DNA from: an uncultured Asticcacaulis sp. | GTDB lineage: Bacteria > Pseudomonadota > Alphaproteobacteria > Caulobacterales > Caulobacteraceae | Direction of reading: 5' to 3' | Length of the DNA: 48,371 bases | Assembly: GCA_936940865.1 (NCBI GenBank) | Contig: CAKZJB010000191.1 | Span: 1 to 48,371 of the forward strand | Part shown: piece after piece, positions 18,061 through 32,978 of the stretch | How positions within the stretch are numbered: the stretch's first letter is position 1 | Layout of the letters: each line of letters starts with the position of its first letter | Made by a program: the position numbers and the translations under genes | The notes under the pieces: model-generated | What the model was told of the DNA's origin: nothing | What the model saw: only the letters and a program-made list of their open reading frames with translations | Databases searched by the model: none

Positions 18061-18081
18061 TGAGATCCCCCCTAAAACCTG

Positions 18082-18100
18082 AAGGTCCACCCCGGACCTT
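18082..18100 (-). promoter_or_regulatory. Hairpin in the leader of the YD-repeat gene
   Basis: Perfect 7-bp stem AAGGTCC / GGACCTT with a five-base loop, 21 bases 5' of the start codon and just before the GGGGGGAT ribosome site. In the minus-strand transcript an outer CCTGA / TCAGG stem and a short TTTT follow, so it could act as an attenuator. On the plus strand the same stem is followed by TTT only. Function is inferred. Confidence 0.35.
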
Positions 18101-18408
18101 TTTGCTCTTCAGGAACTCAATCGGCAGATTTCAAAAATCGTTTAGCGATCGAAGCGACAATTTCTTAGAAAAATTGCAAATCTCTGAAATGAAAAGCTAT
18201 TTTTTCTACATCCGCAGTTGCCGCCTTGACAGCCGGATTTAGGTGCTCGGCGATAACCACTGGTTCCTTTGGAGTGAAACTTCAAGTCAGCGCTGTCTTG
18301 CCAACCGGTATTAGGAACGAATTAACGGCTAGTGGAGAAATTATCACGCAGCGCGTGCGGCACTTTGACATGCCAGCACACACTGTATTTGTGTAAAGTA
18401 TGCTATTT
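18091..18408. other. Divergent intergenic region between YD-repeat and acyltransferase genes
   Basis: AT-richer spacer that must hold both divergent promoters. On the plus strand TTGACA occurs at 18365-18370, a good -35, but no well-placed -10 follows at 16-18 bases; TAAAGT at 18394-18399 is farther than usual. No gene is seen here. Confidence 0.35.
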
Positions 18409-18417
18409 GGGGGGGGG
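18409..18417 (+). repeat. Homopolymeric G9 tract at the ribosome-binding site
   Basis: Nine consecutive G directly before AGATG, so the tract and following AG form the Shine-Dalgarno region of the acyltransferase gene, only 2-3 bases from its ATG at 18420. Poly-G tracts of this length slip in replication and can alter translation. Confidence 0.6.
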
Positions 18418-18419
18418 AG

Positions 18420-19526
18420 ATGACACTCGGCGCAACGGCCCTTGCCGACAAGAAAGTCATATCTACGAGTGAGGCCGCGTCTCCACGCAAAAGGTTCGCT
18501 GCACTTGATGGATTGCGTGGTATAGCGGCCCTGATTGTCGTCCTTTTTCATGCGTCTGCGCGGTATCAGATGCATCTGGCCCCTTACGCTTATCTCGCAG
18601 TCGACTTCTTTTTTTGTCTGAGCGGTTACGTTTTAGCACACGCTTACTCCGACCGCTTGAAACGCGACAATGCGGCCGTTTGGTTCGTTCGAGACCGGCT
18701 AATCCGTTTAATGCCGATGATAAGCCTGGGTGCATCCCTTTGCGCTATAAGCTATATCGTCAATGGAGGGTCCAAGACCATTGCGATTACCGGTTTTGTT
18801 TTCAGCCTGCTGAATATCCCGATGCTTTCGCCTCCGCAAACATTCCACCATTACTATGTTTTTCCAATCAATCCGCCACAATATTCATTATTTTTCGAAC
18901 TGGTGATCAATCTGTTATGGGTAACGTGTAGGAGATACCAGCCGCTCCTGATCGCCGTGGCTGTCATTTCGAGCATTACCTTTCTCATTCTCGGAGAGGG
19001 CGGTGCGGAATCATGGAATTTCTGGTTGGGATTCCCGAGAGCGGGTTCCTCTTTCCTGATCGGTGTCTTTCTCTTTGGTTTGAGTAGAAAAATTTTTTCG
19101 AAAATACCCGGCAGGATCGTGGAGCTTGTTTTTTGGCCGCTATGTATTTTTGCCGTCCTGCTCCTGTGCTGGTACAGAGATACGTCCCATAAGACCCTTG
19201 TCATCTACGGTTGGACTTTTGGGGTCTCGCCTCTCTTGGTGATCTTGGGCGCAAAAATTGAACTGCCGGCCGTCGCCGAAAAAATTGCGACAATCGCCGG
19301 CAATTTATCATATCCATTATACGCACTCCATTTGGGTTTCCTTTTGCTAGCCTTCGCACTTCTTTCCGCGCTGCAGCGCGTAGGACTGCCTGCGTTCGAT
19401 GAGGCTGGCATGCTGACTATTATGCTTTCGATAGCGATCGCGGGAAGCTGGCTGGCCTACAAACACATCGATGTGCCATTGAGAGCTTGGTTGTCGCAAC
19501 GTCTTCATCCTCACTTTCCACTTTGA
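18420..19526 (+). CDS. Acyltransferase-3 family membrane protein
   Basis: A 368-residue integral membrane O-acyltransferase. RFAALDGLRGIAALIVVLFHAS near residue 28 is the family opening, with the conserved His in the first membrane helix; SRxYxxAVDFFFCLSGYVLAHAY and WFVRDRLIRLMPM follow, the latter holding the R-x-x-R loop. About ten membrane helices are evident, ending in IAGSWLAYKHIDVPLRAW. Enzymes of this family transfer acetyl, succinyl or similar groups to exopolysaccharide, lipopolysaccharide or peptidoglycan sugars at the inner membrane. Start is ATG 18420 behind the G9 tract. Transcribed divergently from the toxin; surface modification could be cargo of the island. Substrate unknown. 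GC content is lower than in the right half of the window. Confidence 0.88.
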   Translation: MTLGATALADKKVISTSEAASPRKRFAALDGLRGIAALIVVLFHASARYQMHLAPYAYLAVDFFFCLSGYVLAHAYSDRLKRDNAAVWFVRDRLIRLMPMISLGASLCAISYIVNGGSKTIAITGFVFSLLNIPMLSPPQTFHHYYVFPINPPQYSLFFELVINLLWVTCRRYQPLLIAVAVISSITFLILGEGGAESWNFWLGFPRAGSSFLIGVFLFGLSRKIFSKIPGRIVELVFWPLCIFAVLLLCWYRDTSHKTLVIYGWTFGVSPLLVILGAKIELPAVAEKIATIAGNLSYPLYALHLGFLLLAFALLSALQRVGLPAFDEAGMLTIMLSIAIAGSWLAYKHIDVPLRAWLSQRLHPHFPL

Positions 19527-19767
19527 TATTCCGGCTTGTCGCTGGCTACACGAGCGCATTTCCCGGTCGCCTTTTGCGCGGAGAACCGCCGCCGATGCAA
19601 AGATACTGTCTGACTGAGAACACAAAACTCGTGCTGGCTTAATAGGCAAGGATTTAAAAAATCCGCTATCGTGCCGTTCTCCGGCTACACAGCGAACGGT
19701 ATTCCCGTAAAGATTGCATTTTTCGCGAAACTGGTTAATGGTCACACTCTCAGCTAGGGAGGCGATC

Positions 19768-20148
19768 ATGAAAGTGCTTATCCAGCGTGACCAGCGTTCA
19801 GCCATTTTCGGCAGCAAGCCGGTGTTCGTGTTTGTCGTCCGCGCCCAAGTGACGGACGAGGAGGCCGCGGCAATCAAAAAGTACAAGCTCGGCGAGACCA
19901 GCCTCTACAGCAACCGAACGCACTACAACGAGATCGATAGCGTTAAGAACCTGGCCAAGGAGCTTATCGCCCACGCCCGCGCCGCGACCATTACGGTGAA
20001 CGAGCTCATCGCCGGCAAGAAGTTCGAGTGCAAGGACATTCTCGAAATGCTCGCCATGGAAAATGAAATCCGGGAGCGCGCCGCCATGTTCAAAAACATC
20101 CTGGATGCCGCCATGCACTTCGGCGGCGAGGAAGTGCTGGAGCTCTAA
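19768..20148 (+). CDS. Hypothetical 126-residue island protein
   Basis: Start at ATG 19768 (MKVLIQRDQRSAIFGSKPVFVFVVRAQVTDEEAAAIKKYKLG) is set by AGGGAGG at 19755-19761; the longer frame from 19714 lacks such a site. The protein looks soluble: a beta-strand-rich N-terminal half and an acidic helical C-terminal half ending CKDILEMLAMENEIRERAAMFKNILDAAMHFGGEEVLEL. I do not recognise a family. Five bases separate its stop from the ATG of the large ATPase, so the two are co-transcribed and it may be a partner or adaptor of the ATPases. Confidence 0.75.
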   Translation: MKVLIQRDQRSAIFGSKPVFVFVVRAQVTDEEAAAIKKYKLGETSLYSNRTHYNEIDSVKNLAKELIAHARAATITVNELIAGKKFECKDILEMLAMENEIRERAAMFKNILDAAMHFGGEEVLEL

Positions 20149-20153
20149 GGGCC

Positions 20154-22952
20154 ATGGAATGGTCCAACCTCCTCAACTGGTTGGGCGGCGACCTCGCAAC
20201 CAAAGAACGGCGCGAGATGCGCCGCAGCTGGGACGAAGCGCAAGCGGCGTGGAAGACCTCGCGATTCCCCGGCGCCCAACTTACCCACGAGTTGCTGGCG
20301 ATCGTACATGCTGCCGAGGATCGCGCCCATGTTCAGTTAGCCGGGCCGGTAGTGTGCAAGGCCGCCATGGTGGTCGACGAACTGCTCTTCACAAGCGGGG
20401 TCAGCTTTTGCGACCCGGATTGGAACATTATCTACGCAGATCCCGCCGTGGCCATCGAATTCCGGCAATTCGTCAAGCGCCGGTATCGCTGGTGCACGAG
20501 CTTCAACACGATGTTCCAGGTCTTCGAAAACGCGATGGTCGAAGGCTTGTCCCGCGTCCTGACGCTCCTACCGGAGGCCTGCACGGGCACTTGGGAAGCC
20601 GATGACGAATTTTTCGGAGTGCCGCTCATCGAAATGGTGGACGACCCGGCTGAAGTGGTAGGGCGCCTCTCCTACCTTGCCTATATGCCCGCGCTCCGAA
20701 CCTACGACATCTGTACGGAGGCCCGTGAGCACCTTGGTCAACGCCTGCTGTATGCGTCTGGCTTTCAGAGCGAGGAAGAGTGGGAAAAGCGGCAACCGCC
20801 GCTCACCATGCCGGCAGACCAGAAAAAGATGGCGCCCGTTGAATTGGCGGAAACGTACCTCGCCGGCACCGCCATGCTGGATTTTGCCAAGCTCGTTGTT
20901 CCCTTCCACATCTCGGACGAAGCCCGCTTCGAACACTGTCATATCGTCGGGGGTACCGGACACGGCAAGACCCAGCTTATGCAGCGCATGATCCACCACG
21001 ACCTGGTGGCGGCGCAGACGAGAAAGCGGAGCGTCGTCGTTATCGACAGCCAGGGCGATCTCATCAACAAGCTGGTGCGGTTGGAGCTGTTCGACCCAGA
21101 CAGCGAACACAGCCTTGCGCACAAGCTTGTTCTTATCGATCCGGCCGATGTCGAGTTTCCCTGCGCTCTGAACCTGTTCGACAGTCAGCTTGAGCGCTTA
21201 CAGGGCTACTCACCCGCCGACCGGGAACGCGTGCTCAATGGCGTGGTCGAGCTCTATGAGATGTTCTTCAGCTCCATGCTCGGTGCCGAACTGACGTCCA
21301 AGCAAGGCGTGATCTTCCGCTACCTGGCGCGGCTCATGATGGTGATCCCGAACGCCAACATCCATACCCTCATGCAGATCATGCAGGATGGGCGGCCGTT
21401 CAAGCCGTACATGCGGCAGATGGAGGGCTCGGCCCGCTGGTTCTTCGAGAAGGAGTTCTTCGACAAGTCTTTCGGCCAGACCAAGCAGCAGATCCTAAAG
21501 CGCCTGTGGGGCGTTCTCTCGACCCCGGCGTTCGAGCGCATGTTTGCGCAGCCGACCAATAAGCTGAACCTGTTCGAGGCCCTGAACGATGGCAAGATCA
21601 TCCTGATCTCGACCGCCAAGGATCTCCTCAAGAACGAAGGCAGCGCCCTCTTCGGCCGGTTCTTTATCGGCATGCTGGCGCAGGTCGCCCTTGAGCGCTC
21701 TACGCAAGCACCCGACGATCGCACCCCCACCTACGTCTACATCGACGAAGCCCAGGAGTATTTTGACGACTCCATCGCCACCATCCTGAACCAAGCCCGC
21801 AAATATAAAGTCGGTCTTACCCTCGCCCACCAGGCGCTCGATCAGTTGGCACCATCACTGCGTTCTGCCATCTTGGCCAACACGAGCCTCAAGTGCGTGG
21901 GCGGCGTCTCGTCTAAGGACGCCTCGACGCTGTCCGGGGAGTTGCGCGTCTCGTCGGATTTCGTCGAGACCATGAAGCGCCATAGGGACCGCACTGAATT
22001 TGCCGTCTGGCTCAAGCACAAAACGCCCCACGCCGTCCGCCTCTCTATTCCGCTCGGGTTCCTGGAGCGGCAGCCGCTTATGAGCGAGGACGCGTTCGAT
22101 GAGGTTATAACGAACAACCGACTACGATACGGGACGCCGCTCGACGACCTCCCGCAGCACGCCTTCGCCGACGAGTTTTTCGCCGAGCCGGAAGAGGATG
22201 AGCCTAAGGCGCGACGGCCAGCACCGCCACCGCAGGAGAAACCTGCCACGCGCACGGTGAAGCCCGAACCTGAGCCCACGCCGGAGACTGAAGAAGAGAT
22301 CGCAGCGCCGCCGGCCGATCCCGTCTCGCCTCCTTATACCAATGCTGAACGCACCGAAAATGCGGAAGCCTTCCCGATTCCCGAGGCGGCACCAGTGCGG
22401 TCACCGGCTGGGCCGAAACCGCGGAAACCCAACGCCGAGCGCGAACTGGGCAAAGGCGGTTCCCAGCATCGCTATGTGCAAACCCTCATAAAGGGCCTGG
22501 GCGAAGAACGCGGCTTCCGCGCGGTGATCGAAGCACCCGTCGCCGGCGGCCAGGTGGACGTCGCGCTCTATCGCGAGGAGCTCTCGATCGCCTGCGAGAT
22601 TTCAGTCAGTTCCGCGGCGCAATACGAAGCCCAGAACTTGGCCAAGTGCGCCGCAGCCGGCTTCACGTACATCTTCGCGATCGGCAACAATGCCAAACGC
22701 CTGAAAGCCATCGAGACTTTAGCCAAAGAAGCATTGTCCGAAGACGATTTCGCCAAGGTGCTCTTCCTCACACCGGACGCCGTCGCGGCAGTGCTCGACG
22801 AACTGACACCCGCAGCGACCGAAGAAAACATCGTCAACGGCTATAAGGTGAAGGTCAGCCGTAAGACCATCACCAGCACCGACGCGAAGGAGCGGCGCGA
22901 GTCGATCGCTCGTATAATCGCGAACTCCTTGCGCAACATGCCGAAGAAGTGA
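20154..22952 (+). CDS. Large HerA/TraG-type ATPase with PD-(D/E)XK-like C-terminal domain
   Basis: A 932-residue protein of three parts. Residues 1-240 are a domain I do not recognise, without clear membrane helices. The ATPase core follows: Walker A GGTGHGKT at 266-273, VVVIDSQGDLI, and Walker B YVYIDEAQEYF with D531/E532, then TLAHQALDQLAPSLRSAILANTSLKCVG. This is the layout of the HerA/FtsK/VirD4 superfamily, hexameric DNA pumps and conjugative coupling ATPases. A Pro/Glu-rich linker spans about 690-765. The tail (about 770-870) reads like a restriction-type fold: FRAVIEAPVAGGQVDVALYREELSIACEISVSS, with D802 and E815 but Ser 817 where the catalytic Lys is expected. It probably works with the 126-aa protein and the next ATPase in DNA processing or transfer. 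No relaxase or type IV secretion gene lies in the window. Confidence 0.8.
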   Translation: MEWSNLLNWLGGDLATKERREMRRSWDEAQAAWKTSRFPGAQLTHELLAIVHAAEDRAHVQLAGPVVCKAAMVVDELLFTSGVSFCDPDWNIIYADPAVAIEFRQFVKRRYRWCTSFNTMFQVFENAMVEGLSRVLTLLPEACTGTWEADDEFFGVPLIEMVDDPAEVVGRLSYLAYMPALRTYDICTEAREHLGQRLLYASGFQSEEEWEKRQPPLTMPADQKKMAPVELAETYLAGTAMLDFAKLVVPFHISDEARFEHCHIVGGTGHGKTQLMQRMIHHDLVAAQTRKRSVVVIDSQGDLINKLVRLELFDPDSEHSLAHKLVLIDPADVEFPCALNLFDSQLERLQGYSPADRERVLNGVVELYEMFFSSMLGAELTSKQGVIFRYLARLMMVIPNANIHTLMQIMQDGRPFKPYMRQMEGSARWFFEKEFFDKSFGQTKQQILKRLWGVLSTPAFERMFAQPTNKLNLFEALNDGKIILISTAKDLLKNEGSALFGRFFIGMLAQVALERSTQAPDDRTPTYVYIDEAQEYFDDSIATILNQARKYKVGLTLAHQALDQLAPSLRSAILANTSLKCVGGVSSKDASTLSGELRVSSDFVETMKRHRDRTEFAVWLKHKTPHAVRLSIPLGFLERQPLMSEDAFDEVITNNRLRYGTPLDDLPQHAFADEFFAEPEEDEPKARRPAPPPQEKPATRTVKPEPEPTPETEEEIAAPPADPVSPPYTNAERTENAEAFPIPEAAPVRSPAGPKPRKPNAERELGKGGSQHRYVQTLIKGLGEERGFRAVIEAPVAGGQVDVALYREELSIACEISVSSAAQYEAQNLAKCAAAGFTYIFAIGNNAKRLKAIETLAKEALSEDDFAKVLFLTPDAVAAVLDELTPAATEENIVNGYKVKVSRKTITSTDAKERRESIARIIANSLRNMPKK

Positions 22953-22991
22953 CGCCTACCGCTTCCGCGATTGGCATGAAACAATTTCGGA

Positions 22992-24164
22992 ATGCCCGAT
23001 CCAAACTCCATTTCATACTTCGCACGAACAAATCACCGCAACGAAGGGCGGCTTGTCGGGATCAAGCAGGCCGACCGGCTGCACCACATGTTCGTCATCG
23101 GGAAGACCGGCACTGGCAAGTCAAGTCTGCTGGAGGTGTTCATGCGGCAGGACTTGGAATCTGGGCGCGGATTCGCCCTCCTCGATCCGCATGGTGATCT
23201 CGCGGAGCGCGTTCATGGCGCCGCGCAGCGCTTGGCACCCAGTCGCACACTGTATCTCGACGCAGCCGACGTCACCCAGCCATACGGATACAATCCCCTA
23301 CGTCATGTACGATATGACAGCATTCCGGTTGCGGTTTCTGGCTTCCTTGAGACGCTCAAGAAGCTCTGGCCGGACGCCTGGGGCGTCCGCATGGAACATG
23401 TGCTCCGCAACAGCCTCTATGCGCTCTATGAGCAGCCGGAAGCGAGCCTTCCCGATCTTCTCCGCCTCTACAGTGACGACGGCTTCCGAAAGACTGTCAC
23501 GTCCCGCCTCCGCAACCTGGTGGTCCGGCAGTTTTGGCTTACTGAGTTCGAATCGTATCCCGACCGACTAAGGGCCGAAGCCGTGGCGCCGATCCAAAAC
23601 AAGCTCGGCGCCCTTCTGACCGATCCGCGCCTTTATCGCCTGTTCGTGTCCCATGAGACCGATATTCGATTCCGGCCGCTGATGGACGGCGACGGTGCGT
23701 TAATAGCAAATCTCGCGAAAGGGCGCCTTGGTGAGGAAAGTTCCAATGTCGCAGGCGGTGTGCTGCTTTCCACGATGTTCCTGGCGGCGCTCAGCCGTGC
23801 AACGGAAGCACCGGCTGCGCGCCGTCCATTCTTCATCTATGTCGATGAGTTTCAAACGTTTGCGACACTGACCTTCCTCAATATGCTATCGGAACTGCGT
23901 AAATATGGGGTTGGCGTCACCATAGCGACACAACAGATGAATTTAGCATTAGGCGAAATAGCAACTAGCGCTCTGTCAAATACCAGTAGCTTAGTGAGCT
24001 TTCGACTGGGTGCGGATGATGCGTCCCGAATCGCCCGAGAACTCGGCATTTCACATCTGCTCGACTATCTGCTTTCTCTTCCTACAGGATCTATGTACAC
24101 ATCAATACTAATTGATGGCATGCCCAGCATGCCCTTCTCGGCGAACGCGCGCCAACTGCAATAA
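22992..24164 (+). CDS. Second HerA/TraG-type (DUF87-like) ATPase
   Basis: A 390-residue P-loop ATPase. It begins SISYFARTNHRNEGRLVGIKQADRLHHMFVIGKTGTGKSS, with Walker A at 37-44, then GRGFALLDPHGDLAERV, and Walker B FFIYVDEFQTF with D285/E286; GVGVTIATQQMNLAL and a sensor-like SNTSSLVSFRLG follow. The pattern FGI(R/K)Q-DR--HM-I-GKTGTGKS is common in type IV-secretion DNA-binding domain proteins of mobile elements. It lacks N-terminal membrane helices, so it is not a standard VirD4/TraG. The gap from the preceding stop is only 39 bases, so it is in the same operon. Start is ATG 22992 with a weak site; its C-terminus is about the minimum for the fold. Confidence 0.8.
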   Translation: MPDPNSISYFARTNHRNEGRLVGIKQADRLHHMFVIGKTGTGKSSLLEVFMRQDLESGRGFALLDPHGDLAERVHGAAQRLAPSRTLYLDAADVTQPYGYNPLRHVRYDSIPVAVSGFLETLKKLWPDAWGVRMEHVLRNSLYALYEQPEASLPDLLRLYSDDGFRKTVTSRLRNLVVRQFWLTEFESYPDRLRAEAVAPIQNKLGALLTDPRLYRLFVSHETDIRFRPLMDGDGALIANLAKGRLGEESSNVAGGVLLSTMFLAALSRATEAPAARRPFFIYVDEFQTFATLTFLNMLSELRKYGVGVTIATQQMNLALGEIATSALSNTSSLVSFRLGADDASRIARELGISHLLDYLLSLPTGSMYTSILIDGMPSMPFSANARQLQ

Positions 24165-24220
24165 TAAAATATCGTGGGAGCGCCCCGGATTCGCGGTACC
24201 GATAGCGAGATTTTTGATTA

Positions 24221-24961
24221 TTACATACCCCTAATATCTAGGCTCAATCTTTCAAATGCCGTAATAAGCGCTCCTTGAATATCTCCGAACAATGTCGATC
24301 CTCTTATATTACAAGCATCAAGAAACGAAAACGCTAACTCAGATTGAGACGCATCAATATTGAATTTCCAAAGTACGGTTTCTCTAGGATTCACGTGTAG
24401 AACAAATTCCTCAATCGTATCAAATGTTGCTTCCAAGCTGGTAGCATAACCTAATTGTAAATCGGCACGTGCATTTTTCATTCCCACCAGTTTAATTATT
24501 TTGGCAGAATAATCCCCGCTCCAGATTTGTGAATTTCGATCTAATGCCCAAATTGTAACGTCTCTTCCAACTGATGGCATTTGAGCTCGCTGATGGAATG
24601 CAAAATAAGCTGCAACTAAGGGACTTGTAGTCCAATCCAACAAACGCGTCGGAAGTCCGTAGTGCTGTGCTAAACCTATAAATCCGCCTTCCTCTGGGCA
24701 TTCAACAGCATCCGCGTTAATTTCATCTTTTATATATGATTTGAGAACTTTATATATTTCCACGCGCTTACTGACTGGAAACACTGAAAATTTTCGGTCA
24801 AAGCTAGATTTTAATTGAAAATCAGAAGATCCTTGCCCTCGGAACAAAAATCTATCACGGATAAATACTCCACGCTCCGGGTACAATATTTGCTGAAAAT
24901 TTTTGATGAATTCAAAAAAATTTTCAAACCGTGTTTCATCTATTGCTGGCAAGGGGACCAT
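24221..24961 (-). CDS. FRG-domain protein of a putative defence pair
   Basis: About 246 residues. The start is taken as ATG 24961, one base after the stop of the ATPase gene (TAG-G-ATG), a tight coupling; a TTG at 24976 is an alternative that overlaps that stop. The protein holds the FRG-domain signature: RDRFLFRGQGSSDFQLKSSFDRKF, then GFIGLAQHYGLPTRLLDWTTSPLVAAYFAFH, then VTIWALD. FRG domains (named for F-R-G) are found widely in defence and abortive-infection contexts; their biochemical activity is not settled to my knowledge. The gene is markedly AT-rich compared with its flanks, which indicates separate acquisition. As the downstream small partner of an ATPase it is the likely effector. 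Confidence 0.85.
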   Translation of the reverse strand: MVPLPAIDETRFENFFEFIKNFQQILYPERGVFIRDRFLFRGQGSSDFQLKSSFDRKFSVFPVSKRVEIYKVLKSYIKDEINADAVECPEEGGFIGLAQHYGLPTRLLDWTTSPLVAAYFAFHQRAQMPSVGRDVTIWALDRNSQIWSGDYSAKIIKLVGMKNARADLQLGYATSLEATFDTIEEFVLHVNPRETVLWKFNIDASQSELAFSFLDACNIRGSTLFGDIQGALITAFERLSLDIRGM

Positions 24962-24962
24962 C

Positions 24963-26588
24963 CTACATGCGCTCAACGACTGGATTGGGGAACTCCACTC
25001 TCAACTTCGGAAAAGCATCAAGCATAATACTGTGCAAGGCATATTCTTCGCCATAATCTGGCATAATGAAATCCGAGTTCCGCGACATCGAGTAAAATTC
25101 GAATTTCTCGTCAGATTTACGCCTCTTAAATCCAATAAGTCCGTTTTGCCACAATATTGTAGAAAGATCTATATCCATTTTTGCAGGAGATTTGAAAAGA
25201 TTGTCAGCTTTAATCAAATCATCTATAGATAATTTTTCACATCCTAAACCTTTTATGTAGTTTTTAAACGTGTCTTTCCGGAATGCCACCTGTTCTTTAC
25301 TTGAAACATAAGCATCAGCATAGTCATGTTTTACCGAATGAGCCGGCGCATCATGCGATGCCAGTTGATTCGCACAAATTATCAATTGTTCTTCAGCAAA
25401 CGTTTTTGCCATTTGGGACACGACATTCCTAATTGTATAAACCCACCCATCCCTTGGGTAATTCCTAATTTTATATTGTAGCTTTTCCGTAGCTATAAGA
25501 TTACCCATTTGAACCACATCTCTTGGCAGACACCTTGTGTGGCGTATCACATAATCTATTGAATTTTCAAGACACTTTCTATCGAGGTTTTCTATTGCTT
25601 TCAATCCTAGAAACGATTCTACGGAATTGTCGTCTCTATCATCGAGATACATTGGATGTATAGATTTCACTTTTTCTTTAAGGAAGTATGTAATAGAATA
25701 ATAATCCCACTCCAATATTGATATGTACGGAGTCCTAATATATCGCGTTTGGTGCTCACTTTGCATAACTGATGAGTAGACAATATCTCTTATAGCTATA
25801 ACAACGTGCAACCTTTGACCAATTGCCCCAGATTGTCCCAAGAGTCTTAGGACCGCATAAAACAAACCTTTTTGGCACCTATGCCATTCCATTGGGGCAT
25901 GAGTAAATTCATCGTCAACCGCGTCCATGTATATAAATACTGGGGGACAGGCCTTCAGCGCAGTTCCTATTATTGTTTGGATGTCGTCCCACTTCGAAGA
26001 ACCAGCAAACTTAGAAAAAGTACTTTCCGAACGATATTGGTATAATATATTTTTTAATTCAGAATATGGACTCCTCTCGACCTCCTCTCCACTCTCGAGC
26101 TCTCCGAGATTGCGTAATTTTGAAATTAATATTTCTTGATTTATATATTGATTGAAATACTTTTTATAAGCCAAATGACTCATTACTGATCTAAGAATCG
26201 CAATTCTCCAAGCAGACTGCCATGCCTCCGTCACTCGCTCCATGGTAAATTGTTGGCAGAACCCTATTACTGACAATGTCTGAGGTACGTCTCTAGCAAT
26301 TTTGCTGGCAAAAACCACCTCATCTATATCAGATGAGACAGAATTTTCTTGTCTTGCCGAGTCCTGTAAGCGCCTTATATAAATTGTCTTACCAGCACCC
26401 TTTTTCCCAACAATTATACGAATATTTCGATCTGTCTCAGTTAAAGATATGCCGGTGTTGAATTCTCGTTCATTTAAGCGGACGAAGGTATTGTGGCCAT
26501 CGAATTCGGCCTTTACGCCATCGGGATTTCCGAAGGGATATCGTCCATCATCTCTCATCACATTACCCTGCATTCGCCAGATCAGCAA
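24963..26588 (-). CDS. P-loop ATPase, Sll1717-like, of a putative defence pair
   Basis: A 541-residue cytoplasmic protein. The TTG at 26588 is a plausible start because GGGGAG lies 5-6 bases upstream; ATGs at 26573 and 26558 are alternatives without a good site. Walker A is GKKGAGKT at residues 61-68, and a Walker B-like PVFIYMDAVDDEF lies near 213-225. HVVIAIRDIVYSS with a downstream Arg, and RHTRCLPRDVVQMGN are sensor-type motifs of STAND/KAP-like ATPases. It resembles what databases call the Sll1717 P-loop ATPase family. A C-terminal winged-helix-like part (FKSPAKMDIDLSTILWQNGLIGF) is possible. Strongly AT-rich, in operon with the FRG gene. I infer a sensor or regulator ATPase that triggers the FRG protein. 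Confidence 0.75.
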   Translation of the reverse strand: MLIWRMQGNVMRDDGRYPFGNPDGVKAEFDGHNTFVRLNEREFNTGISLTETDRNIRIIVGKKGAGKTIYIRRLQDSARQENSVSSDIDEVVFASKIARDVPQTLSVIGFCQQFTMERVTEAWQSAWRIAILRSVMSHLAYKKYFNQYINQEILISKLRNLGELESGEEVERSPYSELKNILYQYRSESTFSKFAGSSKWDDIQTIIGTALKACPPVFIYMDAVDDEFTHAPMEWHRCQKGLFYAVLRLLGQSGAIGQRLHVVIAIRDIVYSSVMQSEHQTRYIRTPYISILEWDYYSITYFLKEKVKSIHPMYLDDRDDNSVESFLGLKAIENLDRKCLENSIDYVIRHTRCLPRDVVQMGNLIATEKLQYKIRNYPRDGWVYTIRNVVSQMAKTFAEEQLIICANQLASHDAPAHSVKHDYADAYVSSKEQVAFRKDTFKNYIKGLGCEKLSIDDLIKADNLFKSPAKMDIDLSTILWQNGLIGFKRRKSDEKFEFYSMSRNSDFIMPDYGEEYALHSIMLDAFPKLRVEFPNPVVERM

Positions 26589-26748
26589 AGCTCTCCCCGT
26601 ACGTGTGTTAATTTAATCAACGCCAAAACGTAGAAATTGTAAAGAAGATTTATAGATTCGCTGTCACCTTCCATTTGGCGGATTATATGTTATTGTATAT
26701 TATGTATTTTGTGATGTTGTTCGGTAATATAGTAATGTACCGAGGCAG
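26589..26748. promoter_or_regulatory. AT-rich divergent promoter region
   Basis: Very AT-rich spacer between the ATPase/FRG operon (minus) and the 122-aa gene (plus). It contains several TATAAT-like words, such as TAATAT at 26725-26730 on the plus strand, but no single -35/-10 pair is decisive. It must hold both promoters. Confidence 0.35.
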
Positions 26749-26780
26749 TCTTCTGGTCACGACTTTGAGTGACCAGAAGA
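26749..26780 (+). promoter_or_regulatory. Perfect 12-bp hairpin just upstream of the 122-aa gene
   Basis: TCTTCTGGTCAC (26749-26760), eight-base loop, GTGACCAGAAGA (26769-26780). It ends two bases before the GGAGAGG ribosome site at 26783-26789. No run of T follows, so it is not a normal terminator. It may be a protein operator or an RNA hairpin that controls access to the ribosome site. Confidence 0.6.
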
Positions 26781-26792
26781 TTGGAGAGGTAA

Positions 26793-27161
26793 ATGGAACA
26801 AGATGTAGGTAAAGCTGATCGTCACAATTCGCTTTCCGAAATATCCCTGGTCAGCGAGTTACTTCGTGCTGGGCCTTCGGCGACGAGCGAAGGCCGTTGG
26901 ACAATAAGCGACGGTGTCAGACAGTTGGGGCAGACGTTTCTCGACGTGTTGATAGAAAGCATTTCAAACCCAGCACTTTTGAAGAGCTTCGTCATTTCGG
27001 AATGCGGAGACAGCGGCGCTCTAACAATCTCTGGTACCGTCGTAGTGTGGAGAATTTTGCACGCTAATCGCATCTGCGAGTCAACCACCGCGGTTCAGGT
27101 CTGTGATCAAATAAAAAATACCATTTGCATCGCTCTCTTAGACGAATGCGAATTTAATTAA
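26793..27161 (+). CDS. Hypothetical 122-residue protein
   Basis: Starts at ATG 26793 behind GGAGAGG at optimal distance, and is closed by a strong terminator, so it is a self-contained gene. The product is soluble and acidic at the N-terminus; GRWTISDGVRQLGQTFLDVLIESISNPALLKSFVISECGD and a Cys-containing C-terminal half with VCDQIKNTICIALLDECEFN stand out. I recognise no family. It faces away from the ATPase/FRG pair with a shared promoter region and might regulate or restrain it. Confidence 0.65.
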   Translation: MEQDVGKADRHNSLSEISLVSELLRAGPSATSEGRWTISDGVRQLGQTFLDVLIESISNPALLKSFVISECGDSGALTISGTVVVWRILHANRICESTTAVQVCDQIKNTICIALLDECEFN

Positions 27162-27166
27162 GACCT

Positions 27167-27194
27167 AAAAGCTGCCTGACGGCAGCTTTTTATT
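27167..27194 (+). terminator. Rho-independent terminator after the 122-aa gene
   Basis: AAAAGCTGCC - TGAC - GGCAGCTTTT forms a perfect 10-bp stem and runs into TTTTTATTT. It begins six bases after the stop codon. Confidence 0.9.
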
Positions 27195-27269
27195 TATCTA
27201 CTTCTTCGGCATTTAAGAGCCTTGGTGTTGCACAGCGGTCTAAAGAGAGTCTGTATTATCTTAGCGCTG

Positions 27270-27400
27270 CTAAGGGCTCCGCCCTCGCGCGCACAAGGGT
27301 CACGAGTCCTTCGGACCGGCCCCGGCGGTATCCCCGATCTTCCTCGCTTGGACTCGTGCAGATCGGGTGATCCCCCTCCGCCGGGACCGCCCTTGCACTT
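27270..27400 (+). ncRNA. Structured GC-rich leader upstream of the ParB-like gene
   Basis: Several perfect complementary pairs lie in this non-coding stretch: CCCGGCGG (27321-27328) with CCGCCGGG (27378-27385), CCCGATCT (27333-27340) with AGATCGGG (27360-27367), and CACGAGTCC (27301-27309) with GGACTCGTG (27350-27358). The first two nest into one long hairpin; the third crosses them, so it would form a pseudoknot or an alternative fold. AGGGC-TCC-GCCCT near 27273 is a further small hairpin. This could be a regulatory RNA leader or a DNA site bound by the partition protein. Confidence 0.45.
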
Positions 27401-27424
27401 GCTACCCCGGTCTCGCCGACGGGC

Positions 27425-27457
27425 AGGGTTTCAGCGCCACCCAAGCGCTGCAACCCT
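27425..27457 (+). promoter_or_regulatory. Hairpin immediately before the ParB-like ribosome site
   Basis: AGGGTT-T-CAGCGC, seven-base loop, GCGCTG-C-AACCCT: twelve pairs with one T/C mismatch. The ribosome site GGAGGG lies about 9 bases downstream and the ATG at 27476. Confidence 0.5.
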
Positions 27458-27475
27458 AGCCCCACGGAGGGACCT

Positions 27476-29452
27476 ATGTCCTCAGCTACTGAAACCACCA
27501 CCACTGAGCCCAGCGCGCACATCCTGATCCCGCTCCATAAGCTCAAGAAGTCGCCTAAAAACGCCCGGAAGATGCCGCACAGCCCGGCTACAATTGAAGC
27601 TTATGCGGCAAGCATCGCGGCCAAGGGCATTCTCCAGAACCTTGTCGTGGAGCCCGAATGCGATGATGCAGGCTCGCCCACGGGCTTCTACCTCGTCACC
27701 ATCGGGGAGGGGCGGCGGCAAGCACAGTTGCTCCGCCTCAAGCGGAAGGAAATCAAAAAGACCGAGCCTATCCCGTGCGTCGTTAACGTGCGCTCGGACG
27801 CGTTTGAAATCAGCCTCGACGAAAACGTAACCCGCGAGGCCATGCACCCGGCGGACCAATTCGAAGCCTTTCGGACGCTCGTGGAAGAGCGTGGTATGGG
27901 GGTCGAAGACATTGCCGCTCGCTTTGGGCTCACCGCACACACAGTGCGACAGCGCCTCCGCCTCGGCGCGGTATCGCCCCGGCTTATGGAGGCGTACCGA
28001 AACGAAGAGCTCACCCTTGAGCAACTGATGGCCTTCACCGTCTGCGAGGATCATGAGAAGCAAGAAGCCATCTTTGCCCGTCTAGGCAGTTGGCAGCGAG
28101 ACGCCTCATCCATCCGCCGCGTTCTAACTGAAACCAATGTGCGGGCGACCGACCGTCGCGCCCGATTGATCGGTATCAACGCGTACGTCGAAGCCGGTGG
28201 CACGATTCTCCGTGACCTCTTCACTGAGGACGGTGGCGGCTATTTCGAGAACGCGACGCTCCTAGACCAGTTGGTCGAGGAAAAGCTGACCGCTATCGCC
28301 GTCGACTGCCAACAGAATGAAGGCTGGGCGTGGTATCTGATATCCATCGACTTCCCGCATGCTCATGGCCTGCGGCGCGTATACCCGAAAGACGTTCCAC
28401 TCTCTGAAGAGGACGAGGCGGCGCAGTATGCTGCTCGCACCGAGTACGACAACCTCTATGCAGAATACGAAGAGTGGGACGAAGTGCCGGACGATATCAC
28501 CGCGCGGCTCCAGGAGCTTGAAGACACGATCAATCACTATGCGGACAAGCGGCAGGCCTACACCCCCGCCGACATCAGCCGGAGCGGCCTTATCGTGTCG
28601 CTCGGATCGGATGGACAAGCGCGCATCGAGCGCGGATTTCAGCGGCCGGAAGACGTCGTGATCGAAGAGCAGCCCGACACGCCGGAGAGGACCGAAGCCG
28701 CTACCGGCACTCCCCCTGCGCCAGAAGACGTCGATGACGGTGACAGTTCACCGGCCGCTGCACTGTCAGATGCCCTCATTCGCGACCTGACCGCCCACCG
28801 CACCCTTGCGCTTCGCCTTGCCTTAGGGGAACAGCCGAGCCTTGCGTGTCGAGCGCTCACCCACGCCTTGGCACTTTCGACGTTCTGGCGCAGCGCAAGC
28901 GGACGCAGTTGCCTCGACATTAGGCCGGTTTCTACCGATCTTGGGCCGCTGGCTGATGGCCTCGAAGCTTCGCCCGCCGCCGAAGCACTCATGGCTCGAC
29001 ACACCGCGTGGGCGGCGCGCATGCCGCAAGAGCCCGAGGACCTCTGGGACATCATCGCCGCCATGGACAACGATACCGTGCTGACGCTGCTGGCCCACTG
29101 CGTTTCCCTCACCGTCGATGCCGTGAAGTATCCGCATTGCCGGGCTACCGGAAAGCAGATTGCGGCCGACCAATTGGCAACAGCCCTTTCTCTGGACATG
29201 GCCGAGCACTGGAAGCCCACTACCCGCTCCTACTTCGGGCGCGTCACCAAGGCGCATATTGTCGAAGCCGTGTCGGAAGCTGCGGGCGCGGGCGCCGCAG
29301 CGCGCATTACCGGGCTCAAGAAACAGGCCATGGCCGACGAAGCGGAACAACTGGTGACGGGCACCGGATGGCTGCCACCGCTGTTGCGGCCGGTGCCAGC
29401 GGCGGATAGGTCCACCGATAATGAAGCGGAGCCAGACGCCCAAGCGGCATAA
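27476..29452 (+). CDS. ParB-like partition protein of the plasmid/ICE type
   Basis: A 658-residue protein with a ParB N-terminal domain: ILIPLHKLKKSPKNARKMPHSPATIEAYAASIAAKGILQNLVV, then the CTP-binding-type motif GEGRRQAQLLRL near residue 80. VTREAMHPADQFEAFRTLVEERGMGVEDIAARFGLTAHTVRQRLRLG is the helix-turn-helix. The long C-terminal half includes an acidic/Pro linker (near 400-425) and a helical domain ending at LVTGTGWLPPLLRP. Such long ParB-like proteins without a ParA are frequent on alphaproteobacterial plasmids and integrative elements. No parA is seen in the window, so its role may be regulation or element maintenance rather than classical segregation. Start ATG 27476 has GGAGGG just upstream. 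Confidence 0.88.
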   Translation: MSSATETTTTEPSAHILIPLHKLKKSPKNARKMPHSPATIEAYAASIAAKGILQNLVVEPECDDAGSPTGFYLVTIGEGRRQAQLLRLKRKEIKKTEPIPCVVNVRSDAFEISLDENVTREAMHPADQFEAFRTLVEERGMGVEDIAARFGLTAHTVRQRLRLGAVSPRLMEAYRNEELTLEQLMAFTVCEDHEKQEAIFARLGSWQRDASSIRRVLTETNVRATDRRARLIGINAYVEAGGTILRDLFTEDGGGYFENATLLDQLVEEKLTAIAVDCQQNEGWAWYLISIDFPHAHGLRRVYPKDVPLSEEDEAAQYAARTEYDNLYAEYEEWDEVPDDITARLQELEDTINHYADKRQAYTPADISRSGLIVSLGSDGQARIERGFQRPEDVVIEEQPDTPERTEAATGTPPAPEDVDDGDSSPAAALSDALIRDLTAHRTLALRLALGEQPSLACRALTHALALSTFWRSASGRSCLDIRPVSTDLGPLADGLEASPAAEALMARHTAWAARMPQEPEDLWDIIAAMDNDTVLTLLAHCVSLTVDAVKYPHCRATGKQIAADQLATALSLDMAEHWKPTTRSYFGRVTKAHIVEAVSEAAGAGAAARITGLKKQAMADEAEQLVTGTGWLPPLLRPVPAADRSTDNEAEPDAQAA

Positions 29453-29464
29453 GTGATCGTCATA

Positions 29465-29492
29465 GCCGGTACTGGCCCTGGCCAGTGCCGGC
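29465..29492 (+). terminator. Hairpin after the ParB-like gene
   Basis: GCCGGTACTGGCC / GGCCAGTGCCGGC, 13 pairs including one G-T, two-base loop, located 13 bases after the stop codon. It is followed by CCAAAAAA rather than T, so termination on the plus strand is less certain. Confidence 0.5.
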
Positions 29493-29503
29493 CCAAAAAA
29501 GTT

Positions 29504-29527
29504 GCGGCCCGCGCAAGCGCGGGCCGC
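29504..29527 (-). terminator. Terminator of the MucR-like gene
   Basis: Perfect 11-bp stem GCGGCCCGCGC - AA - GCGCGGGCCGC. Read on the minus strand it is followed by AACTTTTTT, a fair U-tract, which suits the convergent MucR-like gene. Confidence 0.7.
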
Positions 29528-29574
29528 TCTACGTTCCAGCCAGAATTACCGACCACACCGGGTCGGCCAGCCCC

Positions 29575-30033
29575 TTACTTCGCTACTGCGGGTTTGCGTC
29601 CACGACGAGCAGGTGCCGTCGATGTCGCGGGCTTCGGACGAGCCCCTAACCCCATTTGCTTTGCGAGCTGCGAGCGAGCCGCGGAATAGGACGGCGCCAC
29701 CATCGGATAGTCCTTGGGCAAGTTCCATTTCGCCCGATACTCTTCCGGCGACATATTGTAGGTCGTACGTAGGTGACGCTTCAGCGACTTGAACTTTTTG
29801 CCGTCTTCCAAGCAGACGAGATAGTCGGGCGAAATGCTCTTTTTGATGCTCACGGCGGGCGCTTTGGCTTCCGGCTCTTCCGGCTGCGGAGCACCTGTCA
29901 GGCCCGTGAGCGACGCATGGACCGACCGAATGAAGCCCGCCAAGTCCGCGGCCGGGAGCGGGTTCTTCGTCACATAGGCGGTGACGATCGAGGTAGTCTG
30001 GTCAAGAAGCTTTGCCTGGTCGTCCATGCGCAT
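29575..30033 (-). CDS. MucR/Ros-family transcriptional regulator
   Basis: A 152-residue DNA-binding protein. The C-terminal domain has the full family signature: YLVCLEDGKKFKSLKRHLRTTYNMSPEEYRAKWNLPKDYPMVAPSYSAARSQLAKQMGLG, with the zinc-finger-derived Cys and His residues. The N-terminus shows TTSIVTAYVTKNPLPAADLAGFIRSVHASL, the usual dimer/oligomer helix. MucR proteins act as H-NS-like silencers at AT-rich DNA and control exopolysaccharide, motility and cell-cycle genes in alphaproteobacteria. A mobile-element copy may silence the AT-rich cargo. Start is ATG 30033 (AACGGGAC upstream), or ATG 30027. Confidence 0.95.
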   Translation of the reverse strand: MRMDDQAKLLDQTTSIVTAYVTKNPLPAADLAGFIRSVHASLTGLTGAPQPEEPEAKAPAVSIKKSISPDYLVCLEDGKKFKSLKRHLRTTYNMSPEEYRAKWNLPKDYPMVAPSYSAARSQLAKQMGLGARPKPATSTAPARRGRKPAVAK

Positions 30034-30085
30034 GTCCCGTTCTGGCGTGAAAGATGTGCCCTGCTACTCCACAGACGACACGAAT

Positions 30086-30472
30086 TCAACACCGGCGATA
30101 TCGCACGCGGGGTGCTTGCGACCACAATGGCTCCTGGGGAGCGAGGAATTGGGTGATGCCTGGACGGCTGGGTTGCATCGGGTTCCACTCATCTCGCTCC
30201 CACCGCATGAAGGTGCCTTCATCGGCGCCACACGCCTTGGCCGCAGCATCAATAGACAAGCCACGGCGGAGGCGCTCCGCCTTTAACTGCTCCCCGAGAG
30301 TTGCTGGTTCATCCCAGGGTTCGTAGCCCAAAAATTTGATAATCGCGGGGTACGCCCACGGGAGCGGCACGCGCCCTTTCTCCCAGGTCATGAAGGTCCA
30401 GTAATTGATACCCAGGGAAGTCGCCGCCTCATACTGGGTTAGCCCGAGCACGTGTCGGCGCTCTTGGAGCAT
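30086..30472 (-). CDS. XRE-type helix-turn-helix regulator at the island edge
   Basis: About 128 residues with two related helix-turn-helix units: MLQERRHVLGLTQYEAATSLGINYWTFMTWEKGRVPLP and EQLKAERLRRGLSIDAAAKACGADEGTFMRWERDEWNP. The start chosen is ATG 30472 with GGAAGG ten bases upstream; a GTG at 30518 and a TTG at 30571 extend the frame, the latter into the comM remnant, so they are less likely. Probably a repressor controlling island genes. It is the last island gene before the chromosomal junction. Confidence 0.75.
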   Translation of the reverse strand: MLQERRHVLGLTQYEAATSLGINYWTFMTWEKGRVPLPWAYPAIIKFLGYEPWDEPATLGEQLKAERLRRGLSIDAAAKACGADEGTFMRWERDEWNPMQPSRPGITQFLAPQEPLWSQAPRVRYRRC

Positions 30473-30562
30473 TCCGGCTAAGCCTTCCGCAAAGACTGGC
30501 TCTGCAACGGGTCGCACAGCCTTGAGGACCGCCCGGACGCCGGCTGACAAAAAGGCAACGCG

Positions 30563-31100
30563 GCCATGCAAATGCGGCTATGGCGGCGTGGGCAAGGGCG
30601 CCTGCGGCAAGGCGCCACGCTGCCTGCGCGACTATCAGGGGCGGGTGTCGGGACCACTGATCGACCGCATCGACCTGCAAATCGACGTGCCGCCGGTCAC
30701 CGCCGCGGACCTGGCCTTGCCGGCTCCGGCCGAAGGGAGCGCCGAAGTCGCCGCCCGTATAGCCGTCGCCCGCGCGACCCAGGCCGATCGCGCCGCCAGG
30801 CTGAAGCTGCCGGCCGGCAATGCACTCAACGCCACCGCGTACGGGACCGGACTTGAGGCCATCGCCGCGCTCGACCCGTCCGCAAAGGCCCTGTTGACCC
30901 AGGCCGCCGAGCAAAACGGCCTGACGGCGCGCGGCTGGACACGGACGCTCAGGCTGGCGCGGACGATCGCCGACCTCGAACAGTCTGCGAATATCCTGCG
31001 CCGCCACGTTGCCGAAGCGTTGATCTATCGCCGCACCGGCGCGGAAAGTGCGTCCAGGGCCGGTGCGATGCCGGACTATGCCGGCAGCCGCTTGTCGTAA
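30563..31100 (+). pseudogene. comM: comM (yifB) 3' remnant, interrupted by the island
   Basis: From base 30564 the plus-strand frame reads PCKCGYGGVGKGACGKAPRCLRDYQGRVSGPLIDRIDLQIDVPPV, the C-terminal part of the Mg-chelatase-like ATPase ComM/YifB, and continues through GLTARGWTRTLRLARTIADLE to the natural end. In intact proteins this block is preceded by A-M-N-P-C; here the bases before Pro encode unrelated residues and belong to the island. About 178 of roughly 500 residues remain, without the N-terminal Lon-like domain and Walker A. ComM is a hexameric helicase that aids branch migration during natural transformation. The N-terminal half should lie at the other end of the island, outside the window. 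Its 3' end overlaps the SRPBCC gene, on the other strand, by 25 bases. Confidence 0.88.
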
Positions 31101-31609
31101 TCGGCTTTCAGGCGCGCCCAGCTGTCCCAGAAGGGGGCCGGATTGCCGCCCCTGAGGCGCACCGCCATGATGTCGAGGTGCATATGCCAGCCGGCACTGA
31201 CGCTGAGCATGTAGCCGCGGTTCGGGATACCGCGATGGGTCAGGGTCAACAGCACCTGATCGCCCCGGGGCGCCAGTTCGAACGTCACGCCGTCCGAGTC
31301 GCTCCAGGTTATGGCCAGCTTATGCGGCGGGTCGAGTTCGGTGATCCGGCCTTCCATGCGATGTTCCTCGCCGAAACCGTCGGGACGGCGGCCGGGTGGA
31401 TCGGTCAGTTCGTCGTTGCGCCAGACGAATTCGAACGATGCGCCAACCTTCATCTCCATCGCGCCGGCCGCCAGCCACAGGCGGCGCAACTCACCGTCCG
31501 TCAGGTAATTCCAGATTCGGTCGATCGGTCCGGGCAGAAGGCGCTCGATCCTCAGAGTCCCGGGCTCGGTCAAAACGCCGTAGGCGTCAGCGGTGATCAG
31601 TTCGGTCAT
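31076..31609 (-). CDS. SRPBCC (AHSA1-like) domain protein
   Basis: A 177-residue START-like fold protein: TLRIERLLPGPIDRIWNYLTDGELRRLWLAAG is the N-terminal signature, followed by VGASFEFVWRNDE, KLAITWSDSDGVTFEL and VLLTLTHRGIPNRGYMLSVSAGWHMHLDIM. Such proteins bind hydrophobic ligands or act with stress regulators, and are very often the second gene of an ArsR operon, as here: its ATG overlaps the ArsR stop by ATGA. Ligand unknown. Confidence 0.9.
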   Translation of the reverse strand: MTELITADAYGVLTEPGTLRIERLLPGPIDRIWNYLTDGELRRLWLAAGAMEMKVGASFEFVWRNDELTDPPGRRPDGFGEEHRMEGRITELDPPHKLAITWSDSDGVTFELAPRGDQVLLTLTHRGIPNRGYMLSVSAGWHMHLDIMAVRLRGGNPAPFWDSWARLKADYDKRLPA

Positions 31610-31971
31610 TGGTCATCTCCTTTGGGATGTGAAGGTTTTGCTGCGTCCTCTTCGCGCAGCAGCCGTTCGAGACCGTCGAGGCGGCTGGTCCAGAAACGCT
31701 CGTAGACACTCAGCCACTCATGCGCCGTGGCCAGGGGGCCGGGGTCGAGGCGGCACACGTGCAAGCGCCCCCTGACCTCCCGGCGGATCAGGCCGGCGAC
31801 CTCCAGCACCTTGATGTGCTTGGACGCGGCCGCCAGCGTGATGGAAAAGGGCTCGGCCAGCTGGCCGACCGTGCGCTCGCCTCCGGCAAGGTCGCGCAGC
31901 ATCCGCCGGCGGGTCGCGTCGCCCAGGGCATGAAAAACGGTATTGAGTTGGGGGGCTTCATATTCAACCAT
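31606..31971 (-). CDS. ArsR-family repressor, probably leaderless
   Basis: A 121-residue winged-helix regulator: QLNTVFHALGDATRRRMLRDLAGGERTVGQLAEPFSITLAAASKHIKVLEVAGLIRREVRGRLHVCRLD. It lacks the classic ELCVCDL metal-binding box, so it is of the SRPBCC-linked type, not an arsenite sensor. The start is placed at ATG 31971 because the promoter -10 (31979-31984) lies only seven bases upstream, which would make the transcript start at or next to this codon; in-frame ATGs at 32007 and 32001 lie at or upstream of the -35. Operators overlap the promoter, so the operon is probably self-repressed. Confidence 0.9.
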   Translation of the reverse strand: MVEYEAPQLNTVFHALGDATRRRMLRDLAGGERTVGQLAEPFSITLAAASKHIKVLEVAGLIRREVRGRLHVCRLDPGPLATAHEWLSVYERFWTSRLDGLERLLREEDAAKPSHPKGDDQ

Positions 31972-31982
31972 ATTGTTGAATA
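31961..31982. promoter_or_regulatory. ArsR operator 1
   Basis: Perfect inverted repeat TATTCAAC-N6-GTTGAATA that covers the -10 element and the start codon of the ArsR gene. Confidence 0.75.
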
Positions 31983-32007
31983 TAGATAATGCCCCCGCCA
32001 TCGTCAA
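31979..32007 (-). promoter_or_regulatory. Sigma-70-type promoter of the ArsR/SRPBCC operon
   Basis: On the minus strand TTGACG (32007-32002), a 17-base spacer, and TATATT (31984-31979). A start 6-8 bases further falls on the ATG at 31971. Confidence 0.7.
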
Positions 32008-32019
32008 CCGGTTGGTTGA
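32004..32019. promoter_or_regulatory. ArsR operator 2
   Basis: TCAAC-N6-GTTGA, same half-sites and spacing as operator 1, centred 40 bases away (about four helical turns) and covering the -35. Confidence 0.65.
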
Positions 32020-32186
32020 ATAAATTTCGTCACAGTGCGAGGCCCCTGCGGCATCGGGATTTTTCTGCGTCAGGCGCGGTTACGATTAAGGCTTTGTTAG
32101 CGGTTGCGGTAAAAGACTATCGCTATCTCCAGCCCGGGCAACGGCGTCCGCTGACGAGACCATTCCAGACACTTCAGGAGATACCC

Positions 32187-32927
32187 GTGCGAACGCTGGA
32201 TGCGGCCGTGCGTGCGACCGGCATCGAGTCGCCCGCGCCCAACATAGATGGCGCCTACTTCACCGGGCTGATCAACATGGCGGGCCGCCAGCGCATGCTG
32301 AGCCAGCGCATCGGCCTGATCCTCATGATCGCGGCCTGCGCCGACCCGGGGCAGCGGCAAGGTCATGCGGAGGCGCTGGGCCGCGCGCTCGATCTCTTCG
32401 AAGCCAGCCACGCCCTCATTGTCGCCGGCCGAACGGATGCCGCCCATCCTCCGGTCCCGCTTCCCCAACTGTCCGCCTATCTGGACACACCGTTCCAGGG
32501 AGACAACCAGAGCGTCGAACGCATCCTCAAGACTTTCACGACAGAGGCGCGGGCCTTTGCACAACGCCTGGCGCGGGGCGATGCCCTGGCGATCGACGAG
32601 GTTGCGCCGTTTTCCGCGCGCATCGCCGGCCCGATACTCACGCGCATCGCCGGCACCATCGACCGTCTCGAGGCCGATATCACGCAAATCCTGAAGGAAC
32701 GGTCGGCGGAAACCGCGGCTCAGCGCGACAAGGTCATGAAAGCCGTCGGCCGCATCGGCCAGGCCGCGGACACGGCGCGCATGATTTCGTTCAACGCCCG
32801 GATTTCCGCCGCGCGCGCCGGCGAGTTCGGACGGGAATTCACGGCGTTGACGAACGAAATCAAAACGATTTCCGATGACATACAGTCGGCGTCGCGCGAG
32901 ATTCTCGACTACGTCCACGCCATCTGA
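32187..32927 (+). CDS. Soluble PilJ-type sensor / short chemoreceptor-like protein
   Basis: About 246 residues from GTG 32187, selected because AGGAG lies at 32176-32180; the frame is open back to 31989 but without coding character. NIDGAYFTGLINMAGRQRMLSQRIGLILMIAACAD is the type IV pili methyl-accepting chemotaxis (PilJ) N-terminal motif. The C-terminus, RIGQAADTARMISFNARISAARAGEFGREFTALTNEIKTISDDI, matches the tip of a methyl-accepting signalling domain (I-x-x-NA-x-x-AARAGExGxxF). No membrane helix is seen, so it would be a cytoplasmic receptor that contacts CheW/CheA-type proteins. A TTAA-N7-TTAG word upstream (32086-32100) is close to a CtrA box but not exact. Confidence 0.8.
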   Translation: MRTLDAAVRATGIESPAPNIDGAYFTGLINMAGRQRMLSQRIGLILMIAACADPGQRQGHAEALGRALDLFEASHALIVAGRTDAAHPPVPLPQLSAYLDTPFQGDNQSVERILKTFTTEARAFAQRLARGDALAIDEVAPFSARIAGPILTRIAGTIDRLEADITQILKERSAETAAQRDKVMKAVGRIGQAADTARMISFNARISAARAGEFGREFTALTNEIKTISDDIQSASREILDYVHAI

Positions 32928-32978
32928 CAGGGGCCGCACATCCTTCATTAACGGCCGATTCTGTCCTATAGGCAGGCC

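Follow-up and report, generated by a model that had tools for sequence, protein, structure and literature searches.

A candidate immunity-type gene pair of an Sll1717-type ATPase and an FRG-domain protein in an uncultured Asticcacaulis sp.

Several defence systems of bacteria are encoded by two genes, one for an ATPase and the other for an effector, as HerA with a nuclease or SIR2 and PARIS with AriA and AriB; one publication (PMC11291478) reportedly concerns an ATPase-nuclease two-component system. Their likeness to the gene pair considered here is a works-like analogy only, consisting of one NTPase, one small enzyme and coupled genes. In particular, the AriA model touches only the Walker region of the ATPase of this pair (E 0.013) and the HerA model is absent from the PADLOC matches of the same protein, for which no PADLOC model is better than 0.0085; at 1e-5, no PADLOC model is matched by three related ATPases.

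The second protein of the pair carries an FRG domain. The review PMC9503650 places Frg in the ADP-ribosyltransferase (ART) superfamily, as a possible NADase and a domain of prokaryotic immunity, and in its accessible part names no Sll1717 partner, whereas the FRG protein of the pair has one. PDC-S15 is an uncharacterised candidate according to the accessible part of PMC12482510. It is matched by the FRG proteins of all four pair loci described below and differs in that the pair has an ATPase partner; in fact, PDLC04937 (PDC-S15) is the best PADLOC match of the four, at nearly full length, and that of the Asticcacaulis protein spans residues 7-239 of 246 (2.3e-44). The "S" of this name presumably designates a single-gene candidate. 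An earlier note on this DNA knew of no description of the exact pair, in agreement with a search of titles and opening abstracts, outside which lie most subscription papers and preprints; within the same scope, nothing was found on Sll1717, nor any study of FRG protein function.

The locus and its two proteins

The DNA analysed, called the window, measures 48,371 nucleotides and is a whole contig (C191) of the source genome (5.07 Mb in 245 contigs). The features of the pair are the following:

24963..26558, minus strand: ATPase gene, 531 aa from ATG, divergent ATPase_Sll1717; first gene of the pair
26385..26408, minus strand: Walker A GKKGAGKT, residues 51-58; G51, G54, G56 and K57 identical in all four pair ATPases
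25905..25937, minus strand: Walker-B-like FIYMDAVDDEF; D212 and D215 identical in all four pair ATPases
25518..25544, minus strand: RHTRCLPRD motif; RHTR and PR identical in all four pair ATPases
25128..25166, minus strand: C-terminal LSTILWQNGLIGF segment; LW..G identical in all four pair ATPases
24221..24961, minus strand: FRG gene, encoding 246 aa; downstream member of the pair, one base after the ATPase stop
24833..24844, minus strand: FRGQ motif; R41 and G42 conserved in all of 62 aligned FRG proteins
24632..24667, minus strand: QH (99-100) and GLPTRLLDW segment; H100 and D109 conserved in all of the 62 proteins
24455..24457, minus strand: Q169, candidate active-site position; invariant in the 62 proteins

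The earlier note had described the two genes as tightly coupled through TAG-G-ATG and as AT-rich against GC-rich flanks. The former is borne out by the minus-strand reading frames and by the junction, which reads ...GCGCATG-TAG-G-ATG-GTCCCC..., and the latter by the base composition: the G+C content is 0.393 in the ATPase gene and 0.390 in the FRG gene (about 39%), against 0.601 in the whole contig (60%), 0.565 in the left flank (18000-24200) and 0.624 in the right one (26800-33000). An alternative TTG start at 26588, the coordinate used in that note, is possible and would extend the ATPase to 541 aa. At the cassette boundaries the repeats found are weak and short, and mobile-element ends are not claimed. 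On the plus strand, divergent from the pair, lies a 122-aa gene (26735-27190 region, gene at 26793) with an imperfect 26-nt inverted repeat immediately upstream of its start codon and a hairpin resembling a terminator downstream; the gene was considered as a third member and rejected, as it has no family match and no counterpart at the other three pair loci.

The identity of the first protein as an Sll1717-like ATPase is confirmed by NF047389 (ATPase_Sll1717), which it matches with 97.1 bits against a curated cut-off of 75; of its relatives at the other pair loci, L066 reaches 97.8 and L211 86.9 bits, and L210 misses the cut-off with 72.0. Against an Sll1717 profile free of window sequences, the window ATPase aligns over 447 columns with a probability of 99.4% (profile-profile comparison), and a tblastn search with it at 1e-3 recovered none of the sampled Sll1717 loci; on these comparisons, it is far from the ordinary members. 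The pair ATPases are homologous to NF047389 members over nearly the whole length and have in common with them Walker A, the Walker-B-like DxxD, the W and PR motifs and the C-terminal L..L(Y/W)..G. In particular, the PR of the RHTRCLPRD motif is also common to other Sll1717 ATPases, and the LSTILWQNGLIGF segment, a putative winged-helix-like element, aligns with L..LY..G.IG of these proteins. Unlike the ordinary members, the FRG-linked ATPases appear as a separate deep clade, which unites all four with a support of 100/99 in a 24-row tree carrying a long-branch warning. Nine Pfam models are listed for the window ATPase, all below their cut-offs, with NACHT at 13.2 (cut-off 26.7) and BrxC_BrxD at 14.6 (cut-off 22.2); no nuclease family of Pfam or NCBIfam matches either protein of the pair.

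The FRG family is presumably defined by an (F/Y)RG motif, which in the window protein reads FRGQ, and the FRG domain named in the earlier note is found by PF08867 at residues 37-127 (74.4 bits, cut-off 25). F120 is also invariant in the 62 aligned proteins. With its invariant R41-G42, H100, D109 and Q169, the domain resembles the Frg clade of the ART superfamily, as far as this is presented in the accessible part of PMC9503650; R41, H100 and Q169 are candidate ART-like active-site residues, and because that review puts FRG in the ART superfamily, the protein probably acts on NAD+. Its ART fold and NAD chemistry are putative, following the published classification; in the PDB no match was found by sequence or by profile with E up to 10.

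The earlier note had also placed the pair in an island of toxins, which holds for one neighbour. Among 18 window proteins scanned with Pfam there is an RHS-repeat protein of 4909 aa, while the other identified neighbours have mostly other functions: two coupling-type ATPases, an acyltransferase, ParB, a MucR-type regulator, a two-component protein, malic enzyme, MutS, GlnD and a tRNA methyltransferase, five of the 18 being without a match. The 4909-aa open frame (3361-18090, minus strand) contains 17 stretches of RHS repeats together with a LysM domain and DUF4214, and its product is probably a giant protein of polymorphic-toxin type. Two successive coupling/HerA-like ATPases (20154-22952 and 22992-24164, plus strand) both match phrog_5156 and PADLOC mad8 of MADS (58.7 and 60.3 bits), and the second also matches HerA (PADLOC) and has a 40.9% relative on a plasmid of Sulfitobacter mediterraneus. 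The mad8 matches may reflect general ATPase likeness. With PADLOC at <=1e-5, only the FRG protein and these two ATPases are matched among seven window proteins; the same scan shows no other defence part and no clear defence island.

Recurrence of the pair and extent of the linkage

Relatives were sought with the ATPase alone, the FRG protein being left unused. A pattern scan of a collection of 84,980 species gave a single relative, in Antarcticirhabdus aurantiaca (L066, 51% identical), where the next gene encodes an FRG protein (48% identical) and overlaps the ATPase end by 11 bases. In 299 genomes from the order to which the window belongs, a profile of the window and L066 ATPases then matched three, the window's own among them; in the two further genomes (L210 and L211) the next same-strand gene is again FRG, with overlaps of 38 and 17 bases according to first-start-codon calls. 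Over the three relatives, identity to the window decreases from 51 to 25 and 21% for the ATPase and from 48 to 30 and 25% for FRG. Three of the four pair loci were found in this way without using FRG, and in all three it is downstream, on the same strand and overlapping. Recurrent linkage, the absence of which the earlier note had named as a refutation, is observed inside one rare ATPase clade, in which FRG is next at four of four loci, and not between the two families as a whole.

FRG is present in 26 of the 299 order genomes (taken as the same draw as that of the ATPase search), among them both non-window genomes with the ATPase (hypergeometric P 0.007), and the chance that the FRG of a genome is the immediate neighbour is, as a rough figure, about 1 in 3000 per locus. 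When the ORFs of L066, L210 and L211 were matched to the window and to one another, only the two pair genes were found in common, with the exceptions of a response-regulator-like match between L066 and window 34861-35253 and of an antisense ORF over the ATPase; the contig of L210 stops some 100 bases beyond FRG, and the downstream side of this pair lies outside it. By this comparison, the unit is two genes, whose order, strand and overlap or near-contact are kept across four otherwise unlike loci. The G+C content of the pair is below that of the flanks in all four: 0.39 versus 0.57-0.62 in the window, 0.59-0.60 versus 0.65-0.70 in L066, 0.53-0.54 versus 0.66 (one side) in L210 and 0.50-0.52 versus 0.61-0.64 in L211; the pair looks horizontally acquired at each locus. 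Between the window and L066, third-position changes (0.75 and 0.73) are far above second-position changes (0.29 and 0.32), as under selection for protein.

At the level of families, the listings of NF047389 and PF08867 for 398 genomes of the phylum, apparently the same draw, give Sll1717 in 55 genomes, 30 of them with scores above the cut-off, and FRG in 45. The co-occurrence of the two families at large to which the earlier note had looked is not seen: 13 of the 398 genomes hold both, which are adjacent only in the window, and outside it the closest Sll1717 and FRG places that share a contig are separated by about 34 kb (G580:C36). At 20 sampled ordinary Sll1717 loci, no FRG was found within the fetched 3-12 kb. 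Conversely, profiles of the pair ATPases and of Sll1717 match only L066, L210 and L211 across 67 FRG loci, a set composed of 40 of 51 phylum places, 20 of 27 order places, four plasmid loci and these three; the window's own locus is outside the set and L224 is without a complete FRG ORF. The places left out are 11 of the phylum (one is the window) and, in the order, G097, G1014 and G995, while the order places G566, window, G1081 and G1139 were covered separately from the 20. Neither profile matches among the best 80 of 283 viral FRG loci. The ATPase clade itself is rare, occurring in one of 199 family genomes and one of 385 class genomes, in each case that of the window; the window ATPase has no match in plasmids and phages, nor those of L210 and L211 in plasmids, and viral scans gave no relative of the pair ATPases or of three close FRGs. 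As far as these sets extend, the linkage is one-sided, belonging to one rare ATPase clade and not to both families generally.

In a 67-row tree, the four pair FRGs and one from a plasmid of Rhizobium jaguaris are grouped in one fork (95/85). The latter, the closest FRG outside the pair loci, nests beside those of the window and L066 (98/94), and no pair-type ATPase is present in the fetched 14.6 kb around it; a hidden ATPase upstream was looked for, with no convincing match. An FRG of this kind can therefore do without the ATPase or have another partner, and its nested position requires that a partner was lost or swapped.

Nine chosen proteins that neighbour FRG elsewhere are HsdR/SWI2-SNF2-like (two), GmrSD_N (two), T5orf172/ResIII (one), integrases (two), a carbamoyl-phosphate synthase (one) and one protein with no match; the five FRGs beside the restriction-type genes are not in the fork that holds the pair FRGs. 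In two genomes FRG overlaps a GmrSD_N gene by 4 nt (L074, 5719-7526; L078, 5657-7479), and in two others (L077 and L079) it is followed by an HsdR/SWI2-SNF2-like gene. In three order genomes (L222, L223 and L225) a gene of about 630-647 aa, lacking the searched Walker A pattern, directly precedes FRG and is possibly part of a further FRG pair. Viral contigs are also rich in FRG, relatives being encoded by 283 of 302 pattern-matched stretches (L127-L206 are the best 80).

Possible role of the pair

The preferred reading, to which a probability of about 0.45 is given, is that of a horizontally acquired two-gene module of immunity type, in which the ATPase would be the sensor or switch and FRG the NAD+/ADP-ribose effector. 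The two proteins would be made together; the ATPase would bind ATP and keep FRG inactive until it perceives the signal of an invader, which may be nucleic acid recognised by its conserved C-terminal part. Once released, FRG, as an effector of the ART superfamily according to the published classification, would consume NAD+ or modify a target with ADP-ribose, stopping the propagation of a phage or plasmid at the cost of the cell. Since the pair recurs in different genome surroundings, it is a good candidate for an unlisted phage or plasmid immune system. The more specific version, an undescribed two-gene immune system whose deep-clade Sll1717-type ATPase senses the invader and licenses the FRG effector, is put forward a little more tentatively still. 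The role in immunity is a reasoned guess drawn from the PDC-S15 matches, the HsdR/GmrSD-type neighbours of FRG elsewhere and the classification in the accessible part of PMC9503650. The module as such is favoured by its recurrence, its low G+C at all four loci, the single ATPase clade and the constraint on protein sequence; against it count the rarity of that clade, the Rhizobium jaguaris FRG with no pair-type ATPase in 14.6 kb, the L210 score below the NF047389 cut-off and the lack of a clear defence island among the seven window proteins scanned with PADLOC.

An addiction module of toxin-antitoxin style is a rather unlikely alternative: FRG would be the toxin, restrained by the ATPase, and the mobile region would be stabilised with no phage defence. 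The overlapping two-gene unit of low G+C and the plasmid-type ParB and coupling-type ATPases of the contig agree with it, as does the occurrence of the pair at other loci without the neighbours of the window; on the other hand, typical antitoxins are small, whereas this ATPase has 531 aa and a conserved nucleotide-binding site. Because toxin-antitoxins overlap with defence systems, this alternative is not sharply separate from the immunity-type module. Somewhat less probable is a restriction-type module, in which invading DNA would be the substrate of the ATPase, while FRG would have an accessory or regulatory part in DNA targeting and would not be an NAD enzyme. The five restriction-type proteins among the nine chosen FRG neighbours suggest it, but the adjoining FRGs do not belong to the fork with the pair FRGs, the other four neighbours are integrases, a carbamoyl-phosphate synthase and a protein with no match, and neither pair protein matches a nuclease family of Pfam or NCBIfam.

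Equally doubtful is a cargo pair with a non-immune role, such as responding to stress or controlling the transfer of the host element. It would fit the coupling-type ATPases that adjoin the pair and the seven window proteins in which PADLOC finds no complete defence system beside it, yet these neighbours are not common to the other pair loci, and PADLOC lists FRG as a defence candidate. Chance neighbourhood, with which the missing family-level linkage would agree (Sll1717 in 55 and FRG in 45 of 398 genomes, adjacent only in the window), is contradicted by the recurrence, FRG being next at all four loci of the clade down to an ATPase identity of 21%, and it is very improbable.

By analogy with the described systems, the immunity-type pair is a candidate for an unlisted version of the ATPase-plus-effector module. 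The case indicates that a linkage can be invisible at the family level yet clear inside one clade. FRG is widespread both in bacteria, with 45 of 398 genomes of the phylum, and on viral contigs, with 283 of 302 pattern-matched stretches, and the stable ATPase-FRG unit offers a small construct for asking what FRG does and what triggers it. If the immunity-type reading is true, PDC-S15 would gain a conserved partner and Sll1717-type ATPases would be tied to a named effector.
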